Source: Treponema sp.
GTDB taxonomy: Bacteria > Spirochaetota > Spirochaetia > Treponematales > Treponemataceae
Assembly (NCBI GenBank): GCA_017551705.1
Contig: JAFZLA010000042.1
Span: 1 to 64,000, forward strand
Direction of reading: 5' to 3'
DNA length: 64,000 nt
Shown here: positions 29,979-63,387 of the stretch, one piece after another
How the letters are laid out: the number at the start of each line of letters is the position of its first letter
Numbering within the stretch: position 1 is the first letter of the stretch
The notes under the pieces: model-generated
Database searches by the model: none
Seen by the model: the letters and a program-made list of their open reading frames with translations, nothing else
What the model was told of the DNA's origin: nothing
Made by a program: the position numbers and the translations under genes

Positions 29979-32156
29979 ATGAAAGACAACGGCAATAAAA
30001 CTAAGAACGAAAAATCGATTCGCGTAAAACATCCAATTGGAATAACGCTCGCGCTCATCATTGGACTTATCGTAGTCATATCGCTTGGCTCGGTAACATT
30101 CTTGAACAGCTACTTCCAGAGCAAAGACGCCCGCCTTACCGCGGAGGAAAACAACCTTACAATCAACTCTCGTTCCGCGTCTTCCATCGAGGAGCGCTTG
30201 AACACAATTCGTTCAAACGTCTTCCAGCTTTTGGATTTGCTCAGCGTTGTTTCGGGAGGAAGGAACTCGGCGCTTTCAAGACAGGCGCAGTCATTCTTCT
30301 TTGAACGCAATCCCGACATCGCTTCCATCTACGTTTTGTCAGAGGACAGCGCGGAGCAAGGAAACGCAAGCGACATTCGAATGGTCAACAGCCGCTTCTT
30401 CATCTCAAACGAAATTGACGAAAGCGTGCAGGAGCAGTTCTTCCGCGACAACCAAGATTCAATCCGCCGCTCTTGCGCCGGCGAGACAATCGCTTGCAAC
30501 GCCAGCCCGCTTTTTGGCCGCAGCGCGCTTTGCCTTATGATACCTTACAAGGAGAACGGACGCGACCAATCTTGCTGCGTAACGTTCAGCGCCGAAACAT
30601 TGGCCGAGATTTTGGGTACCGGCTCGCTCAACACCAGCTTTATGATAAACGACACCGACGAGCTTTTGGTCCACCCCGACAGCGACAGAATCATCCGCGG
30701 CGAAAGCATGAAGAACTATCCGCTTGTCCGCGAGATGCGCGCCAACAACCAGAACAACGACAGCGCTCGCCAGATTCCTTACAACGAAGTTGACGAAGCG
30801 ACTTCTAAAAAGATTCCTTACTACGGAGCCTACCAAAAGCTTCCGCTTGCCGACATCGTAGTAATGACAATCGTTCCTTTGGACAACGTTTTGGAAGGCG
30901 CGAGGACAACAACAAAGAACAACGTTTACTTGACAGCCGCGATTTTGTGCATTTCAATCATCTTGATTTTGTTTTTCGCGCGCTTCGTGATTTCGCGCCC
31001 CTTGCGCCGCTTGTCTTTGGCGGCTCACGAAATTCAAGAAGGCAACTTTAACACTCCGATAATCTCGCGCCTCAACTTTGAGCGCGGCGACGAAATCGGC
31101 GTTCTCAACCGCGGTACTCGCGACGAGCAAGAATTCCTAAACACATTCGCCAAGTTCACCAACCAAGGCGTCGCCAAAGCGATCGCCACAAAGTCAATCG
31201 ACTTTGAGCCGCACCTTAAGGACTGCACAATCTTCTTTAGCGACATCCGCGGCTTTACAAAAATCTCTGACGGCTTTAAGGCGCGCTTTAACGAAGAGTC
31301 CGCCGCCGAAATCATCACCTTCCTTAACGACTACATGGGACGCATGGTAAACTGCGTAACATTGAGCCACGGAAACATCGACAAATTCGAAGGCGACGCC
31401 ATCATGGGCGTTTGGGGAATTTTGCGCGAGGACGACTTGAGCTTTGAAAAGTTGCCCGACACAGACCCCAAAAAGAAAGAGCTTACATTGGAGCACTCGC
31501 GCCATGTAAAAGAAGACGCCATCAACTGCATTCGCGGCATCATCGCGATGCGCTACGCTCTTATGGAATACAACAAGGCGGCCGAGCAGTTCACCAAGGA
31601 ACACGCCAATGAGCCCAAGGCCCGCTACAAGCCCCACATCCAAATCGGATGCGGCATCAACACCGGCCGCGTAACAGCCGGCGTTATGGGCGGCGGAGAA
31701 AAGATGGAATACACCGCCATCGGCGACGCGGTAAACTTTGCAAGCCGTACCGAGGCAACCAACAAGCCTTGCGGCACCGACATTTTGATTACCGAAGACA
31801 CGTACAATCTTATCAAGAGCGACTACATTCGCTGCGAAGAGAACCATCGCATGATTCCCAGCGAGTTCGCCGATGACGAAATTGTCGTCGAGCGCATTCC
31901 CGTTACAATCGAAGTCAAAGGAAAAGGCGAGCAGCACTTTTACGGCGTTGTCAACATGCCGCGCTTTGACATCGAAAAATTCTTTAAGACATCCAACCCG
32001 GACTTTAAGGTTGATCCTGACTGCGCCAAGGCCGTTGGCCCGACTGGTCCTAGGACAATGAAAGAAGTTCGCGAGTTGTTGGGCATACCCACTCCAGATT
32101 TTGAAAAGGTTAATTTGAATGAAGAAGAAAACAAGACTGTCGTCAAGCCAAGCTGA
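29979..32156 (+). CDS. Membrane adenylate cyclase (sensor-HAMP-class III cyclase)
   Basis: 725 residues. Membrane helix 1 (about 22-44), an exported sensor of about 265 residues (Cache-like in size and place), membrane helix 2 (about 310-335), a HAMP linker (RPLRRLSLAAHEIQEGNF), then a class III cyclase domain (about 400-650). FSDIRGFT and GDAIMG carry the two metal-binding Asp; KMEYTAIGDAVNFASR carries the Asp and Asn expected for ATP use. It makes cAMP in response to an outside signal. The start overlaps by frame a 10-codon frame at 29966, which I consider meaningless. Its 3' end overlaps the FecR gene by 38 nt. Confidence 0.92.
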   Translation: MKDNGNKTKNEKSIRVKHPIGITLALIIGLIVVISLGSVTFLNSYFQSKDARLTAEENNLTINSRSASSIEERLNTIRSNVFQLLDLLSVVSGGRNSALSRQAQSFFFERNPDIASIYVLSEDSAEQGNASDIRMVNSRFFISNEIDESVQEQFFRDNQDSIRRSCAGETIACNASPLFGRSALCLMIPYKENGRDQSCCVTFSAETLAEILGTGSLNTSFMINDTDELLVHPDSDRIIRGESMKNYPLVREMRANNQNNDSARQIPYNEVDEATSKKIPYYGAYQKLPLADIVVMTIVPLDNVLEGARTTTKNNVYLTAAILCISIILILFFARFVISRPLRRLSLAAHEIQEGNFNTPIISRLNFERGDEIGVLNRGTRDEQEFLNTFAKFTNQGVAKAIATKSIDFEPHLKDCTIFFSDIRGFTKISDGFKARFNEESAAEIITFLNDYMGRMVNCVTLSHGNIDKFEGDAIMGVWGILREDDLSFEKLPDTDPKKKELTLEHSRHVKEDAINCIRGIIAMRYALMEYNKAAEQFTKEHANEPKARYKPHIQIGCGINTGRVTAGVMGGGEKMEYTAIGDAVNFASRTEATNKPCGTDILITEDTYNLIKSDYIRCEENHRMIPSEFADDEIVVERIPVTIEVKGKGEQHFYGVVNMPRFDIEKFFKTSNPDFKVDPDCAKAVGPTGPRTMKEVRELLGIPTPDFEKVNLNEEENKTVVKPS

Positions 32157-35070
32157 CGCAGCCGCCTTTGAGCGCTTTCACCTTTCAAAAAATTCTCTCT
32201 TTGTGCCCTTTATCTTGACGGTGCTTTTCTGCGCTTGCGGGGCCGCCGCCAACATTTGGCTTTTCTGCAGGTCTTACTTTATGGCGATGAGCCGTTTGGA
32301 CCAAACGCCGATCGCCACAATCACATTTAAATACAAGGCCGCGCAAAGAAAATTTATCGACCGCAGCTTGTGGACCCGCCTTGTGCAAAACTCTCCGGTT
32401 TACAACGGCGACACCTTGCACACAGGCGAGCTTAGCGAAGCCACCGTTCACTTTACAGACGGAAACGAGTTGGAGCTTAGCGAAAACACAATGGCCCAAG
32501 TCTTCTTGCACGAGGACCAGTCGTTTGGCGCCGCCTTGACCGAAGGTTCGGCGGTTGTCGACTCCAGCGCGGCCGAAAACGGAATGAGCTTTAGCGTTGG
32601 CGGAACCAGCGTTGACATCCAAAAGGGAGCGTCAATCTCTGCCGAAATCGACGGCGACGCCGACCAGGGCGGAGCGGTTGCCTTGCGCCTGTTGAGCGGA
32701 AACGCCAGCGTGGACGGTTCGGTTCTTACAACCGACAACGCGGTCATCGTAGGACAGAACGGAATCAAGGCCGCGCCTTTGACCGTAAAGTCTCCGCGCG
32801 ACGGCCAAAAATATTTGTTCCATGACCAAAAAGAAATTCCGGTCAAGTTTGCGTGGAAGTCCGTCAACTTGGAAGACGACGAAGACTTGATGCTTGAAAT
32901 CTCTGCCACAAAAGATTTTAGCGAAGTTGCCCATCGCATTTACGCAAACGGATTGGACAACCTTACGGTCAACCTGGAAAGCGGCGCTTGGTATTGGCGC
33001 TTGCTTTCGGTGAACAAAGGAACAACCGAGGAGCGCAACAAGGAACGCAGCGCAAGCGGCCGCTTGCAGGCGCTTTATTCGCCCGCTCCCGAGTTGGTAA
33101 CTCCTGTAAACGAGTACACATATTATTATAGAACGCGCAATCCGTCGGTCCGCTTGATTTGGACTGAGAGCCAGTACGCCACTTCTTACTTGCTTGAAAT
33201 TTCTAAGCGCGACGACCTCAAGCAGCCGGTTGTAAGCCAGCGCAGCGCCACAACGTCAAGCATCATCTCGACCTTGCCGGCCGGAACTTACTACTGGCGC
33301 GTAACTCCGTTCTTTACTATTAACAAGACAGGCTTGGCCGCTCCCAGCGCGGTTCAGCAATTTACAATCGTGCGCCGCGGAGAGCTTAACCCGCCCCAGC
33401 TTTTGGCTCCTACAGCCAACGGCAGCGTGGACATCTCTTACGAAGTAGGCGCGGCGCACTTTTCTTGGAAGAACGAAAACGAAGCGGCTTCTTACCGCGT
33501 AAAGATTTTTAGGGAAGGCCGCGAGTCTTCTCCGGTTGTTGACGAAGTGACCACCAAAAACTACTTGCAAGTAATTCCTGCCGACGCGGGAATCGGAGAA
33601 GGCAAGTGGTATTGGACTGTGGCGCAAGTTGACGACGAAGGAAACGAGTCAAAGGCTTCCGAAGAGCGAATGTTCTACGCGCAGAGAGGAAAGCTTTTTG
33701 TGCGCGCGATCGAGCCTGCCGAAGGCTACCGCGTCGCCAACACATTCGCCGCCGACATGAAGTTCACTTGGAAGCAAAACCTTCCGCAGGACTTTACGAG
33801 CGTCTTGCAAGTTTCGACCAACCCCAGCTTTAACACTTTGGTTTACACCGCCAAGGTAATCGGAAACTCAGCGTCTTCGATTTCTTTTGCCGACGGCCGC
33901 TACTATTGGCGCATCCATTCAAAGAACGAGGCGGGAATGGTTTTGGACACCCAGCCCAAGTCCTTTGAAGTTTTGCCGCAGTTGGAGGCTCCTACTGTAA
34001 TGGCTCCTATAGGCCGAGCGGTTGTCCACCCCGAGACTCCCTACGCGTTTAAGTGGAGCGAAGTTGACGGAGCGGACTTCTATAAACTTACGATTTATCG
34101 CGCTGGCGACAGCACGATTGTTTACGAAGACAACTTGTACCAAACAGGAACCGAGATTCCTATGTACGACGCTCCGGGCTTTGTTGACCGCAGCTTGTAC
34201 CGCTACGAATTGCAGGGCCGCGCCAACGCCATCGAAGGCAAGTCAAGCCGCCGCAACGGACGCTTGGCCGAAGGCCAGTTCTTGCTTGTAAAGATTAGGC
34301 CGGTTGACTTGATTAGCCCTGCCCGCGGAACTACGATTGACGGAGCGGCGGCGGTGACCGACCTTATGCAAATCAGGTGGTCGTCTGTCGAGGCGCCCGC
34401 AAAGTCTCAGTTGGTCATCAACAAAGTTGACGGACGCAACAGGACATTGATGTTGCGCTATCCCAACGTTCCGTTTGAAACGTCAAATCCGCAGTTCCCG
34501 ACTTCTTACAAGCTGGACTTGCCCGAAACTTTTGAGGCCGGAAACTACGAAATTATAATCATGGCCGAGACCGCCGACGGATACGACATTTCCAACAGCG
34601 ACGAAAAGACAATCGGCCGCTTTAAGATTACTCCCGTTCCGCCGCTTGACAACATTTCGTCTGTGAGCGTCGAGCCAAGGACAATGGACGTTGACTATCT
34701 TTTGAACGAGTCCAACCCGCGCTTCTTCACTTTCTCTTGGACGCCTGTAAAGAGCGCGACGCATTATTCGATTCAAATCAACGACAAGAAGGGCCGCCCC
34801 ATGCTGCCAAGAACGGAAGTTTCGGCAAAGACGCTCAGCTACAAGTTTGACTTTATGGAGCTGGAAGACGGAGTTCGCGAAAAGTTCATGAACGGAACAT
34901 ACCAGTGCGCCGTTCAAGCCGTTCGCCGCGTAAGCATTGACCGCGAAGGCAAAAAGATAGAAAAGATTTTGCAGAGAAGCCCTGTAAAGACGCAAAACTT
35001 TAACGTTGACATCGGCGACCCCAAAAAGGCGCGCGGAAAGAAAGGAGCCAAGAACCCCTATGGACTTTAA
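32119..35070 (+). CDS. FecR-domain protein with repeated fibronectin-like modules
   Basis: 983 residues. One membrane helix (about 27-50) anchors a large periplasmic part. About 85-215 is a FecR-like beta domain (VYNGDTLHTGELSEATVHFTDG). From about 235 to 940 there are about seven Ig/FnIII-like modules, recognisable by repeated WYWR or YYWR strands (GAWYWRLL, GTYYWRVT, GKWYWTVA, GRYYWRIH). FecR proteins relay signals across the periplasm; here no sigma factor is present, and the cyclase takes the place of the signalling partner. Overlaps both neighbours, so all three are translated together. Confidence 0.85.
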   Translation: MKKKTRLSSSQADAAAFERFHLSKNSLFVPFILTVLFCACGAAANIWLFCRSYFMAMSRLDQTPIATITFKYKAAQRKFIDRSLWTRLVQNSPVYNGDTLHTGELSEATVHFTDGNELELSENTMAQVFLHEDQSFGAALTEGSAVVDSSAAENGMSFSVGGTSVDIQKGASISAEIDGDADQGGAVALRLLSGNASVDGSVLTTDNAVIVGQNGIKAAPLTVKSPRDGQKYLFHDQKEIPVKFAWKSVNLEDDEDLMLEISATKDFSEVAHRIYANGLDNLTVNLESGAWYWRLLSVNKGTTEERNKERSASGRLQALYSPAPELVTPVNEYTYYYRTRNPSVRLIWTESQYATSYLLEISKRDDLKQPVVSQRSATTSSIISTLPAGTYYWRVTPFFTINKTGLAAPSAVQQFTIVRRGELNPPQLLAPTANGSVDISYEVGAAHFSWKNENEAASYRVKIFREGRESSPVVDEVTTKNYLQVIPADAGIGEGKWYWTVAQVDDEGNESKASEERMFYAQRGKLFVRAIEPAEGYRVANTFAADMKFTWKQNLPQDFTSVLQVSTNPSFNTLVYTAKVIGNSASSISFADGRYYWRIHSKNEAGMVLDTQPKSFEVLPQLEAPTVMAPIGRAVVHPETPYAFKWSEVDGADFYKLTIYRAGDSTIVYEDNLYQTGTEIPMYDAPGFVDRSLYRYELQGRANAIEGKSSRRNGRLAEGQFLLVKIRPVDLISPARGTTIDGAAAVTDLMQIRWSSVEAPAKSQLVINKVDGRNRTLMLRYPNVPFETSNPQFPTSYKLDLPETFEAGNYEIIIMAETADGYDISNSDEKTIGRFKITPVPPLDNISSVSVEPRTMDVDYLLNESNPRFFTFSWTPVKSATHYSIQINDKKGRPMLPRTEVSAKTLSYKFDFMELEDGVREKFMNGTYQCAVQAVRRVSIDREGKKIEKILQRSPVKTQNFNVDIGDPKKARGKKGAKNPYGL

Positions 35071-57688: not shown

Positions 57689-58696
57689 ATGATTGAAGTT
57701 AAGTCCAAGCCCTTTGCCAATTTTACATTCATAGACTTGTTCGCCGGCTTGGGCGGATTTAGGCTTGCGCTCCAATCTTTGGGCGCGCGCTGCGTGTATT
57801 CCAGCGAATGGGACAAGCAGGCGCAAGACGTTTACCAAGAAAACTTTGGCGAGCGGCCCAACGGCGACATTACCAAAGTTGACGAAAAAACAATTCCCGA
57901 CCACGACATCGTTTGCGCAGGCTTTCCTTGCCAGGCCTTTTCTATCAGCGGAAAAATGCGCGGCTTTGAAGACAGCCGCGGAACGCTCTTCTTTGACGTG
58001 GCGCGCATCGTAAAAGAAAAAAAGCCCAAAGTTGTCTTTATGGAAAACGTGCGCAACTTTGCGCGCCACGACGGCGGCCGAACGCTCCAAGTCGTTCAAA
58101 AGACGATGCAAGATTTGGGCTATTCATTTTTTTACAAAGTTTTGAGCGCCCGCGATTACGGCGTTCCGCAAAAGCGCGAGCGCGTCTACATGGTTTGCTT
58201 TAGGAACGATTTGTTTGGCGGCGATTCCTGCGCTAATTTTGAATTTCCAAAACCATTTCCGCTGACCCGCCATGTCGAAGACCTTTTGCTCGCCGACGGC
58301 CCGGAAACAGCGCCGCTTTATTGCAACCGTTCCGACATTTACTTTAACAAAAAAAAGGAAGACAAATATTCCAACAAGCCGATAAAGCTTGCAATCGTTA
58401 ACAAGGGCGGCCAGGGTGAGCGCATTTACAGCGCCAAAGGAATCGCCGTGACCCTTAGCGCTTACGGCGGCGGCGTCTTTGCCAAAACTGGCGGCTACTT
58501 GGTTGGCGGAAAACCGCGCCGCCTGCATCCCCGCGAATGCGCGCGCTTGATGGGCTACCCCGATTCCTACAAAATTTCCAAGCGGCCCAACCAAGCCTAC
58601 AAGCAGTTCGGAAACTCGGTTGTGGTGGACGTGCTGCAGCTTATCGCGCTGCAAATCGCAAAGGCGCTTGAGACCGCGCGTTCCGGCTCCAACTAA
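57689..58696 (+). CDS. C5 cytosine DNA methyltransferase (Dcm type)
   Basis: 335 residues. Motif I FAGLGGFRLAL (about 14-24), motif IV with the catalytic Cys in GFPCQAFSISG (about 76-86), motif VI MENVRNF, motif VIII QKRERVYMV and motif X KQFGNSVVVDV. The target-recognition region lies at about 200-270. It is followed by a Vsr gene, the normal partner of C5 methylases, and has no restriction endonuclease next to it. Confidence 0.94.
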   Translation: MIEVKSKPFANFTFIDLFAGLGGFRLALQSLGARCVYSSEWDKQAQDVYQENFGERPNGDITKVDEKTIPDHDIVCAGFPCQAFSISGKMRGFEDSRGTLFFDVARIVKEKKPKVVFMENVRNFARHDGGRTLQVVQKTMQDLGYSFFYKVLSARDYGVPQKRERVYMVCFRNDLFGGDSCANFEFPKPFPLTRHVEDLLLADGPETAPLYCNRSDIYFNKKKEDKYSNKPIKLAIVNKGGQGERIYSAKGIAVTLSAYGGGVFAKTGGYLVGGKPRRLHPRECARLMGYPDSYKISKRPNQAYKQFGNSVVVDVLQLIALQIAKALETARSGSN

Positions 58697-58697
58697 G

Positions 58698-59150
58698 ATG
58701 GACACGCTTACAAAAGAACAACGGCATTATGTGATGTCTCAAATCAAAAGCAGCGGCACCAAGCCCGAACTTGCCGTTCGTTCCTACTTGCACAAACTTG
58801 GATTCCGCTTTAGAAAAAACGACAAGCGCCTTGCCGGAAGTCCCGACATTGTTTTTCCAAGATATTACGCGGCCATTTTTGTAAACGGCTGTTTTTGGCA
58901 CGGCCACAGTTTGTGCAAAAAAGTTAGGATTCCAAAAACAAACACGGAATACTGGACGCAAAAAATACAGCGCAACAGGGAGCGCGACAAAGAAGAAATC
59001 CAAGCGCTGATCGCGCAAGGCTATCGGGTAGGCGTTGTCTGGGAGTGTTCGATTACAGGAAAAAATCGCTCCCAGAAAATCCAAGAGATTTCTGAGAGCG
59101 TCGCCCTTTGGCTGGAAGAAGGCTTTGACCAAACCTTCAAAGAATTTTAA
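58698..59150 (+). CDS. vsr: Very short patch repair endonuclease
   Basis: 150 residues from the ATG at 58698. Vsr nicks DNA beside T:G mismatches left by deamination of 5-methylcytosine. MSQIKSSGTKPELAVRSYLH, GSPDIVFPRYYAAIFVNGCF and WHGHSLC match the family with metal-binding Asp and zinc-site His/Cys. It starts 1 nt after the methylase stop. Its stop overlaps that of the convergent lipoprotein by 3-4 nt. Confidence 0.95.
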   Translation: MDTLTKEQRHYVMSQIKSSGTKPELAVRSYLHKLGFRFRKNDKRLAGSPDIVFPRYYAAIFVNGCFWHGHSLCKKVRIPKTNTEYWTQKIQRNRERDKEEIQALIAQGYRVGVVWECSITGKNRSQKIQEISESVALWLEEGFDQTFKEF

Positions 59151-60343
59151 AGTCCTTTGGCCCAGATGTAGGTGCTAAGGTAGGGGTCGGGTTTTATCGC
59201 TGCGGGGCTTTCCCAAACTTCGTCAATCAAGCCCTTGTCGTTGATGCGGCCGATGCGAACGCGCTTTTGCAAGTGCTGGTTTTCTCCGTCGATTTTTACC
59301 AAGCCTTCGGGAGCGTCGTAGCTAAGGCCTTTGGCCGCGATGCGAACGTCTTCTGTGTCAAAGGTTCCCGCTTTTTCGCAAGCCAACGCCCACAGTTGGA
59401 CGGCGGTGTAAGCGGCGGCCATCGGGTCGCCCACGATTTCGTCTTTTCCGTACGAGTCCTTGTAGCGCTGGACAAAAGTTTTGTTTTGGAACGACGCGAT
59501 GGTCTGAAAGTAGCTCCAAGTTGCAAGGTGGCCTTCGATGATTTGTGGACCAATAAAGGCCGCCTCTTCTTCGGAAACCGAAAAGCTCATCACAGGAATT
59601 TCGTGATGCTTGATTCCGGCGTTGTAAAGCTCGGTAAAAAAGGCCTTGTTTGACACGCCGTTGATTGTGTTGATTACGATGTCGGGCTTTTTTGCGATGA
59701 TGTCTTGGACAATGTCGTGAAAGTCTTCTGATTCAAGAGGTTTGTATTCTTCGCCAACGACAACTCCGCCCAAATAAGCCAGCTGCGCCTTTACGATTTT
59801 GTTGGCGGTTCGGGGGAATACGTAGTCCGAGCCGACCAAGTACATGCGCCTTCCAAAATTGTCAAAGCAATACTCGATGCTTGGAACTACCTGCTGGTTT
59901 GGGGCGGAACCGGTGTACATGATGTTGGGGCTGGCTTCCATTCCCTCGTATTGCAAGGGGTACCAAAGCAAGCCGTAAATTTCCGGCGTCTCCACCACGT
60001 TCTTTACTTCTTTTCTTGACGCTGACGTCCAGCAGCCAAAAATCGTGGCAACCTTGTCGACAAAAAATAATTTTTTTGCCTGTTCAGCAAAAGTCTCGGG
60101 GTCGCTCTTTCCGTCAACTTGGACGATTTGAATTTGCTTTCCTAAAACGCCGCCGCGTTTGTTGATTTCGTCAATCGCCATTTTTTCTGCGTTTATCAAA
60201 CCCTTTTCGCTTTGGGCCATCGCTCCTGTCATAGAATGCAGGATTCCGACTTTGACGACGTTTTGATTTTTTTTGTTGGCGCACGAAGTTGCAAGGATTG
60301 TCAAAAGAGCGGCGATGGCCGCCATATAATTTTTGCTTTTCAT
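59147..60343 (-). CDS. UrtA-like substrate-binding lipoprotein paired with a cyclase
   Basis: 398 residues from the ATG at 60343. Signal peptide with lipobox LATSC (Cys 21). The mature protein matches urea/short-chain-amide binding proteins: HSMTGAMAQSEKGL, GGVLGKQIQIVQVDG, FGCWTSASRKEV, YPLQYEGMEASPNI and GSDYVFPRTANKI. No UrtBCDE transport genes are in view. The start codon overlaps the cyclase stop by 4 nt, so it is likely a ligand sensor for the cyclase rather than a transport protein (inference). Confidence 0.88.
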   Translation of the reverse strand: MKSKNYMAAIAALLTILATSCANKKNQNVVKVGILHSMTGAMAQSEKGLINAEKMAIDEINKRGGVLGKQIQIVQVDGKSDPETFAEQAKKLFFVDKVATIFGCWTSASRKEVKNVVETPEIYGLLWYPLQYEGMEASPNIMYTGSAPNQQVVPSIEYCFDNFGRRMYLVGSDYVFPRTANKIVKAQLAYLGGVVVGEEYKPLESEDFHDIVQDIIAKKPDIVINTINGVSNKAFFTELYNAGIKHHEIPVMSFSVSEEEAAFIGPQIIEGHLATWSYFQTIASFQNKTFVQRYKDSYGKDEIVGDPMAAAYTAVQLWALACEKAGTFDTEDVRIAAKGLSYDAPEGLVKIDGENQHLQKRVRIGRINDKGLIDEVWESPAAIKPDPYLSTYIWAKGL

Positions 60344-63300
60344 TTCTTTTCTCCTGGAACAAGGTCGTAGGTTTCCATAATGCCTTTTCCCTTTATGTCG
60401 CATTCAATCGGGCCGTGGAACCATAGGTCCATATCCTTTACGCGGTCGTAAACCGCTTTTGACATTTTGATTTTTCCGGGAACGGAATTGCTTTCCATGC
60501 GGCTTGCGACGTTGACTGTGTTTCCCCAAACGTCGTAAATAAATTTTGTCTTTCCGATAACGCCGGCGTTGGCGGGGCCGCTGTTCAAGCCGATTCGGAT
60601 GTTGAACTTAATCATGGCCTTTTGGTTGTAGGCTTTGAGGTCTTCCATCATTCCAAGCGCGAACTGCACCATAATTTCGGCGTGGCGTTCGTTGGGAGTA
60701 GGCAAGCCGCAGCCGGCCATGTAGGCGTCGCCGATTGTCTTGATTTTTTCTACGCCCATGGCCTTGGCGCGTTCGTCAAAGCGGCTGAACAAGTCGTTAA
60801 GGGCAAAGGCGATTTCTTCGGCAGTGTACTCGCTGGAAGTTCTGGTAAAGTTTTCGATGTCAGAGAACAAAATCGTAACGTCAGGAAAGTTTTCACCGAT
60901 TGAGTGAATGTTGTCGCGCAATTCGTTTGCTATCTTGTCCGGCAAAATCGCGCGCAAAAGTTGGTCTGATTTTTCTTTCTCGATTTCCAACTGCTTTGTG
61001 CGCTTTCTTACGATTCCTTCCAGGCGGATGTTTTCCAACTTGATGCGCCTTTGCTTTAAGTAAAAGATTGTTACAACCGTTCCAAAGAAAGCGATGGTGG
61101 CCAAAACCCAGAACCACTTTGTTTGGTAAAAATACGGCTTTTGCACAAAAAGTCTTGTCTCGGCCTTTGGCGAAATCAAGCCTTCGCCGTTGATCGCGTT
61201 GACCATAAAGGTGTGGCGGCCAGGCTTTAGGTTGGTGTAAGAAATAGTTCGTATCGCGCTGGCTTCCGAAAAATCGTCTTCAAAGCCCGTGAGCCTGTGC
61301 GTGAACTTTAGTTTTTCGGGCGCTCCAAAACTAAGGCCGGTGTATTTTATCTCAACGCGTTTTGTTCCCGGCTTGAGCTCAATATAATCGGTTGGGTTTT
61401 TGTGCTCCACCGTGTCAACCTTGACGCTCTCGATGCAAACCAAAGGAAGGACGGGATTGGCGCGAGCCTTTTGCGGGTCGTAAACCGCAAAGCCGTCAAC
61501 GGTGGCCAGCCACAAGCGGCCAAGCCTGTCGCACATGCTGAGCGAAGTCGAAGTGGGGCCGTCGGAGTCAAAGCCTTCGTTTTTGTTGTAATACTTGATC
61601 GCGATTTTTGGTCTTGTTCCCTCGGCCGCCGCGACAAAATCCTCAAAGGGAGCGCAGGCGATTCCGTAGTTGCTTGTTATCCAGGCTTGGCTCATTTTGT
61701 CAAAGAAAATTTGGAAGACCGAATCAGTTTCAAGTCCGTTGTCGGAATTGATTGTTTGGAATCCGGTTGGCAACCTAAGCTGCGAGCTGTCGTAAGAAGG
61801 GCAGCGGGCAAGTCCTGTTCCTGTGCAAATCCAATAAGAGCCCTGCTTGTCTTGGCTAATCTTAAAGATGATGTTTCCGGGCAAGCCGTGTTCCGAAGTT
61901 TGGCGGCCAAGAAGGCTTTCGTCTTTCATGTAGTAAACGCCGCCGCCGTCCGTTCCAATCCAGAACAAGTCGTTCTTGTCCTTGTAAATGCACATGATGT
62001 ATTCGTTGGTAAGGCCGTTTGCTTGGCGGAAATTTTTTATGCTTCCGTCTTTGTGGATTATGCTAAGGCCGCTTGTCGTTCCGACATAAAATTCTCCAGG
62101 CTGGCTTTCGATCGCTACGCGCACTTTGTTTCCCGCAAGGCCGTCGTCCGCGCTCCAAGTTTTGATTTGGCCTGTGCGTACGCTGTATCTTATGAGGCCC
62201 GGCTTTGAATAGCAGCAAGCCAAGACGTCTCCGTTTGTCGTAATCTCAACATGGCGGACGCGAATCTCTCTTGTAAATTCAGTAAGGCGGTTGTAGACAG
62301 GCTTGTCGTTTTTGTAGGCAAGAACGCCTTCGTCAGTTGCAAGCCAAACAGTTCCGTCGCGGCCTTCGGCGATGGCGTTTGTCGAGACGGAATTTTTGAC
62401 CATCTTAAAGCGGCCTTGGGTGAGCTTTCCGATTCCGTTCCTGTCGGTGGAAATCCAAATGTATCCTTCGCGGTCGCAAATGACTTTGTTAATCTCTGCG
62501 CCTTTGATGCCGTTGATGTTGCATTCGTAATACTTTCCGTTGTTGTAGGCTACAAGGCCTTCGTCGGTTCCAAACCAAATCGTTCCGTCGGGAGCGGGAT
62601 AAATCGTTCCTGTAGCCGTGTAGTCCAGAAGCGTTCCTGTCCAAATGCGCGCGGCTTTTCCGTTTTTGATTTGGTAGATGCCCTTGGTTCCCAAACCAAG
62701 CCAATAGTTTCCGTACTTGTCTTGGGTAATCGCCGTGGCGGTATAGTCGCCAAAGGAGCTCATAAAGGGAACGGAGCGGAAAAGGCCGTTGATAAAAATA
62801 AAGAGGCCTTTTTCGTTTTCGGTGGTAAGCCAAACGCAGCCCGCTGTGTCGCAGTAGAGGCTTGTGCAAAGAATTCCTTTTGCCACCGTTCCCGGCTCAA
62901 ACTGGGGATTGATCAAGTGTTTGTCGTTGGTCAAGCAAACCACGCCGGCCGACGTTCCAACCCAAATGTTTTGCTTTTTGTCTTCGACAATCGCTCGGAC
63001 TGAATTGTTGGGCAGTCCGTTTTGCGTGGTGAATGTCATGTTCTTTCCGTCGGGCGAAAGCATTTGCAAGCCTTCGTCGTTGGAGCAAACCCACATATTT
63101 CCGTTGGTGTCTTGCAAAAGCGCCCTGGCCGAGGCGAAGGTGACGCCGTTGTCTTTTCCGCGCCTTAGGGCGGTAAATTCCAAGCCGTCAAAGCGAACCA
63201 AGCCTTCGTAAGTGCCGATGTTGATAAAGCCGTCGCTTGTTTGAATCACGTCAGTTGCGGTCGTTCCTGTAAGGCCCCCAAAGGTGTTCCACGATTGGTA

Positions 63301-63387
63301 AACGTAGCTGTCAAAAAATGAATCTTCCGCGAATAGAGAGCCCGCAAGGACAAGGCCCGCGAGCAAGGACGAAAACAATCTTTTCAT
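60340..63387 (-). CDS. Sensor adenylate cyclase (beta-propeller, Y_Y_Y, class III cyclase)
   Basis: 1015 residues. The signal peptide ends SLFAED. About 30-640 has about a dozen Reg_prop repeats (GLTGTTATDVIQTSDGFINIGT-type, in short units ending WIGT or WFGT), forming periplasmic propellers. About 680-745 is a Y_Y_Y domain (TGFEDDFS, YTNLKPGRHTFMV). A membrane helix (about 750-772) and coiled coil (RTKQLEIEKEKSDQLL) lead to a class III cyclase (about 820-1000): FSDIENFT, IKTIGDAYMAG and DVWGNTVNVASR, with Lys and Asp typical for ATP. In Bacteroidetes the same sensor part drives histidine kinases; here it drives cAMP synthesis. Confidence 0.92.
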   Translation of the reverse strand: MKRLFSSLLAGLVLAGSLFAEDSFFDSYVYQSWNTFGGLTGTTATDVIQTSDGFINIGTYEGLVRFDGLEFTALRRGKDNGVTFASARALLQDTNGNMWVCSNDEGLQMLSPDGKNMTFTTQNGLPNNSVRAIVEDKKQNIWVGTSAGVVCLTNDKHLINPQFEPGTVAKGILCTSLYCDTAGCVWLTTENEKGLFIFINGLFRSVPFMSSFGDYTATAITQDKYGNYWLGLGTKGIYQIKNGKAARIWTGTLLDYTATGTIYPAPDGTIWFGTDEGLVAYNNGKYYECNINGIKGAEINKVICDREGYIWISTDRNGIGKLTQGRFKMVKNSVSTNAIAEGRDGTVWLATDEGVLAYKNDKPVYNRLTEFTREIRVRHVEITTNGDVLACCYSKPGLIRYSVRTGQIKTWSADDGLAGNKVRVAIESQPGEFYVGTTSGLSIIHKDGSIKNFRQANGLTNEYIMCIYKDKNDLFWIGTDGGGVYYMKDESLLGRQTSEHGLPGNIIFKISQDKQGSYWICTGTGLARCPSYDSSQLRLPTGFQTINSDNGLETDSVFQIFFDKMSQAWITSNYGIACAPFEDFVAAAEGTRPKIAIKYYNKNEGFDSDGPTSTSLSMCDRLGRLWLATVDGFAVYDPQKARANPVLPLVCIESVKVDTVEHKNPTDYIELKPGTKRVEIKYTGLSFGAPEKLKFTHRLTGFEDDFSEASAIRTISYTNLKPGRHTFMVNAINGEGLISPKAETRLFVQKPYFYQTKWFWVLATIAFFGTVVTIFYLKQRRIKLENIRLEGIVRKRTKQLEIEKEKSDQLLRAILPDKIANELRDNIHSIGENFPDVTILFSDIENFTRTSSEYTAEEIAFALNDLFSRFDERAKAMGVEKIKTIGDAYMAGCGLPTPNERHAEIMVQFALGMMEDLKAYNQKAMIKFNIRIGLNSGPANAGVIGKTKFIYDVWGNTVNVASRMESNSVPGKIKMSKAVYDRVKDMDLWFHGPIECDIKGKGIMETYDLVPGEKK

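Follow-up and report, generated by a model that had tools for sequence, protein, structure and literature searches.

A predicted urea-binding lipoprotein encoded with a propeller adenylate cyclase in Treponema: a candidate two-protein urea receptor

AmiC from the amidase operon of Pseudomonas aeruginosa is a cytoplasmic negative regulator of AmiR, and no membrane cyclase takes part in its action. Substrate-binding proteins (SBPs) that activate transmembrane receptors have been described for chemoreceptors, histidine kinases, protein kinases and c-di-GMP enzymes; adenylate cyclases are not among them (PMC11113362). For UrtA, the SBP of the urea transporter UrtABCDE, the structure of the Prochlorococcus protein with bound urea showed a pocket of nine residues, Trp120, Ser122, Tyr141, Gln144, Glu146, Tyr190, Phe192, Asn246 and Ser274, and all UrtA homologues assayed in the same study bound urea (PMC10392092).

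The window analysed here is a stretch of 64,000 nucleotides from Treponema sp. (assembly GCA_017551705.1, contig JAFZLA010000042.1, positions 1 to 64,000). In it the gene of a class III adenylate cyclase and that of an UrtA-type lipoprotein form an overlapping two-gene pair on the minus strand (Table 1). We favour the interpretation, with some reserve, that the pair is a dedicated urea co-receptor of a cAMP cyclase. A first-pass annotation of the window had placed the start of the lipoprotein gene inside the stop codon of the cyclase gene, had ascribed to the cyclase a sensor of Reg_prop repeats and a Y_Y_Y domain, and had noted a strong likeness of the lipoprotein to urea-binding proteins. 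These three claims were borne out: the TGA stop of the cyclase gene (60342-60340) overlaps the ATG of the UrtA gene (60343-60341) in a 4-nt overlap; the profile search gave 124 bits for Reg_prop and 33 bits for Y_Y_Y; and the lipoprotein matched Peripla_BP_5 with E 1e-146 and the UrtA profile TIGR03407 with 491.1 bits, the cut-off being 492.75. A 418-aa version of the UrtA-like open reading frame merely uses an in-frame ATG further upstream. Because the pair is followed by a convergent vsr gene and preceded by a divergent gene, we regard it as a two-gene unit. The vsr mismatch endonuclease gene lies behind a cytosine-5 DNA methylase gene (57689-59150 for the two together, plus strand), and both converge with the UrtA gene.

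Table 1. Features of the gene pair in the window
Feature	Position	Strand	Basis
Propeller adenylate cyclase, 1015 aa, pair gene 1	60340..63387	-	Reg_prop + Y_Y_Y + Guanylate_cyc; AlphaFold2 model
Periplasmic double beta-propeller, Reg_prop repeats, approx. residues 30-660	61408..63300	-	Domain matches and model folds
Y_Y_Y domain, residues 687-746	61150..61329	-	Domain match
One transmembrane helix, approx. residues 757-780, leading into signalling helix	61048..61119	-	Sequence WFWVLATIAFFGTVVTIFYL; model helix 757-796
Class III nucleotidyl cyclase domain, residues 833-1009	60361..60891	-	Guanylate_cyc match and residue alignment
ATGA shared by the cyclase stop and the UrtA start (translational coupling)	60340..60343	-	Sequence
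Ribosome-binding site AGGAG, 7 nt 5' of the ATG of the UrtA-like gene	60351..60355	-	Sequence
UrtA-like urea-binding lipoprotein (predicted), 398 aa, pair gene 2	59147..60343	-	Profiles, pocket alignment
Likely lipidated Cys21, LATSC lipobox (predicted)	60281..60283	-	Sequence; Cys at matching place in named relatives

The cyclase begins with a signal peptide and has as its C-terminal output a Guanylate_cyc domain (186 bits); a histidine kinase domain was not found in the profile search. In the AlphaFold2 model, calculated with a 40-sequence alignment (pLDDT 85, pTM 0.62), the nearest solved folds are the sensor domains of BT4663 and BT3049, which align over ~780 columns, and the C-terminus matches bacterial class III adenylyl cyclases. 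Asp843, Asp887, Lys883, Asp952, Asn959 and Arg963 are invariant across 40 aligned relatives. From what is established for class III enzymes we take Asp843 and Asp887 to be the metal ligands, Lys883 and Asp952 to be the adenine-type residues and Asn959 and Arg963 to act on the transition state. Since none of these three kinds of residue is missing, the product predicted from the sequence should be cAMP. The source genome encodes cNMP-binding proteins as possible effectors, none of them linked to the pair. Elsewhere in the window two genes overlap (29979-32156 and 32119-35070, plus strand), of which one encodes another class III cyclase with an extracellular sensor region and the other a large exported protein that looks FecR-like; a similar layout recurs twice elsewhere in the genome.

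The gene pair, which the first-pass annotation had proposed to look for in other treponemes, is conserved there. In 196 genomes of the genus we found 143 UrtA-like matches, 99 of which, in 98 genomes (related genomes, many of them MAGs, which do not represent independent events), lie directly 3' of a propeller cyclase on the same strand. Another 28 lie directly 5' of UrtB, and none of the 143 borders both the cyclase and UrtB; on inspection, several of the other 16 proved to be pairs split by contig ends. The gap between the cyclase and UrtA genes ranges from -1 to 150 nt, with one at 284. Bearers include Treponema bryantii XBD1002 and NK4A124, T. ruminis RU1 and many MAGs from the ruminant gut. 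At about 30 named pair loci the downstream gene belongs to 16 families and the upstream gene to 27; the pair has therefore been kept together while its surroundings changed, and mere synteny was rejected as the cause of the pairing. Outside the genus, the sample of the phylum showed the pair in a single other genus, a relative from the same family, and nowhere beyond.

In trees the pair cyclases form one group and the pair UrtAs one clade (support 96/99; 97/98 in a repeat tree), sister to the transporter-linked UrtAs. The simplest history is that in rumen or gut treponemes a copy of UrtA was joined, a single time, to one cyclase out of an already existing, older propeller family, and that a few losses followed. 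UrtA adjoins the cyclases of more than about 52% identity, save for a few true losses, and does not adjoin those of 48% identity or less in the loci read. That propeller cyclases in general come with an SBP was rejected, the paralogues of 36-48% identity having other neighbours. By tblastn, UrtA was recovered at three loci at which gene calling had missed it and was found to be truly absent at one other (L243), and three "solo" labels in the cyclase tree (L062, L065, L071) are gene-calling artefacts. Three genomes (G017, G036 and G189) have kept a cyclase of 52-56% identity and have no UrtA match at E 1e-30; two of these cyclases are nested inside the pair clade, and that of G036 is the deepest branch. 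Since cyclases of this kind sit within the pair clade, the cyclase can persist without UrtA, which counts against a dedicated receptor.

Such orthologues without UrtA speak for an alternative that we consider unlikely, though it is the best of those weighed: that the propeller binds a carbohydrate directly, in the manner of the Bacteroides hybrid two-component systems, and UrtA adds a urea input, so that cAMP would report the supply of both carbon and nitrogen. A coincidence sensor of this type would agree with the top fold matches to the BT4663 and BT3049 sensor domains; BT4663, a solved relative of the propeller, binds its sugar (heparin/heparan sulphate) directly, again a point against the dedicated receptor. 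It would also agree with the location of UrtA-less propeller cyclase paralogues, seven of which lie beside GH95-like genes and one beside a GH53 gene. This location suggests that the glycosidase-adjacent paralogues are cAMP-making sugar sensors, and the paired cyclase could therefore integrate sugar and urea. However, a conserved glycosidase was not found beside the pair itself in the pair loci examined.

The dedicated urea co-receptor, to which we return, draws on the binding protein. On the TIGR03407 profile the pair UrtAs of T. ruminis, T. bryantii NK4A124 and T. bryantii XBD1002 score 533.5, 500.1 and 492.1 bits, respectively, and the window protein is ~55-61% identical to transporter UrtAs from the same genus. 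Its pocket consists of W105, S107, Y128, Q131, E133, Y174, F176, N228 and S255, assigned with a numbering that was checked on 8hic, where counting from W120 gives the expected residue at all nine positions. In the alignment the nine residues do not vary in any of the 48 pair UrtAs or the 14 transporter UrtAs, and several of them are changed in nine distant homologues of 23-36% identity. Because nine of nine are kept, the ligand should be urea specifically and not an amino acid. The first-pass annotation had proposed a two-protein sensor with cAMP as its output and an amide or a compound resembling an amino acid as its ligand; the sensor is supported overall, and its ligand would be urea in place of an amino acid. 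Distant UrtA-like proteins (L120-L124, L168-L170; 29-36% identical to the window protein), some of them beside UrtB-like permeases, have changes at the positions of W120, Q144 and N246 and probably bind another amide or an amino acid.

The same two-protein sensor could instead respond to another small amide, such as formamide, acetamide or a urea analogue, in the way of AmiC. AmiC (1pea) is a homologue with the same fold, and an UrtBC-like permease pair of B. japonicum is linked to amidase genes (PMC3098086); yet the retention of all nine urea contacts throughout the pair proteins and the binding of urea by every UrtA homologue assayed make this quite improbable.

With respect to urea uptake, the first-pass annotation had stated that urt permease genes are missing. 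This is correct for the neighbourhood and for the pair's own contig, on which there is no UrtB-like gene, but not for the source genome, in which a complete urt cluster lies on contig C74 (L006:7645-16813): urtA, urtB and urtC fused into one gene, urtD and urtE, with convergent urease genes behind them. The C74 UrtA scores 577 bits on TIGR03407 versus 491 for the window copy, to which it is 60% identical, and the two belong to different, well-supported clades, for which reasons we rejected the window gene as a recent duplicate of the C74 urtA. The C74 transporter thus has an UrtA of its own, from another clade, which speaks against its relying on the window protein. As expected in the first-pass annotation, most bearers of the pair have no urt permease: UrtB is absent from 77 of the 98 pair genomes, UreC from 82, and UreC together with urea carboxylase from 80. 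Restricting the count to the 35 pair genomes of high quality (completeness of at least 90%, contamination of at most 5%), 29 lack UrtB, UreC and urea carboxylase alike. In three near-complete ones (G001, G015, G104) a permease of the UrtB/LivH type was not found even at E 1e-10. T. ruminis is an exception with respect to metabolism, since a urea carboxylase, for the most part present, is encoded at the start of its chromosome. From the distribution of UrtB/LivH a transport role of the window UrtA was rejected. That it serves an ABC transporter for urea or amino acids as a second binding subunit and lies next to the cyclase by chance, for which its strong UrtA likeness and the UrtBCDE genes on C74 could be cited, is thus largely refuted by the distribution and very improbable, the more so as transporter operons carry their own UrtA and the pair outlasts changes of its flanks.

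At positions such as 206, 214, 233, 237, 241 and 332, the residue is fixed among the transporter UrtAs and all three solved structures, and the pair clade is no longer held to it. This would fit a loss of permease docking; we count it as supportive only, because the pair clade is more diverged overall.

UrtA-like proteins are also found with c-di-GMP enzymes, in two other spirochaete families. One is a 726-aa fusion of UrtA, PAS and GGDEF (L278:1492-3672, plus strand; L283:5216-7396) with an intact urea pocket and a frame without signal peptide, a candidate for an intracellular urea-sensing diguanylate cyclase. In the other (L282:5168-10152, minus strand) the gene of a membrane-anchored UrtA-like protein, its pocket likewise intact, overlaps a gene for a dCache(weak)-HAMP-PAS-GGDEF-EAL protein. 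The unrelated output enzymes, rather than the tree, suggest a separate origin of these UrtAs: a test of their position apart from the pair clade gave an AU p of 0.46, with long branches. Both loci support UrtA as a urea input module, a function for which it may have been adopted more than once.

Since most bearers have neither a urea transporter nor a urea-degrading enzyme, the dedicated co-receptor would serve as a receptor rather than in nutrition, and the pair probably reports the surrounding urea and is not a means of eating it. We infer the following sequence of events. In the periplasm the lipid-anchored UrtA-like protein would close around urea and, in a ligand-dependent form, dock on the cyclase ectodomain with its two propellers and Y_Y_Y domain. 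From there the change would travel via the single transmembrane helix and the signalling helix, reach the class III homodimer and alter its synthesis of cAMP.

If this is true, cAMP cyclases join the receptor types that are driven by binding proteins, urea, which is abundant in ruminants, becomes an environmental cue for gut spirochaetes, and genes annotated as "urea ABC transporter substrate-binding protein" may encode sensors. A bacterial adenylate cyclase of the receptor type is thereby given a predicted ligand, which can be put to the test in T. bryantii and T. ruminis, both of them in culture.

Compared with UrtA of UrtABCDE (TIGR03407), the pair UrtA is alike in fold, in the complete urea pocket and in its predicted export as a lipoprotein; it differs in being encoded with a cyclase rather than with urtBCDE and in forming a separate clade. 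AmiC would resemble it in that a protein of the UrtA fold serves as a sensor and not in transport. The ectodomain of the cyclase, two propellers and a Y_Y_Y domain followed by one transmembrane helix, is like that of the Reg_prop/Y_Y_Y hybrid two-component systems BT4663 and BT3049, whereas these have a histidine kinase as output and the window protein has a class III adenylate cyclase and a binding protein as partner. With the SBP-activated receptors, e.g., LuxP-LuxQ, the pair shares an SBP gene adjoining the gene of a transmembrane signalling enzyme, an adjacency that is conserved, and by analogy the actual signal should here too be the SBP in its ligand-bound state; the ligand of the pair would be urea. 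The receptors compiled in PMC11113362 include no adenylate cyclase, and the literature searched, which comprised few subscription journals, yielded no paper on an adenylate cyclase paired with an SBP or on an UrtA that acts as the sensor of a cyclase. That the pair is the first SBP-gated adenylate cyclase, a bacterial receptor cyclase made of two proteins by which gut spirochaetes, most of which neither import nor degrade urea, read urea from the host, is a tentative claim to which we give slightly less than an even chance. In the natriuretic-peptide receptor guanylate cyclases, as in the pair, a type I binding-protein fold outside is connected by one membrane helix to a class III cyclase inside (the match to the ANF_receptor profile is weak); these are single eukaryotic polypeptides that respond to a peptide with cGMP, whereas in Treponema the arrangement is divided between two proteins with a propeller between them.
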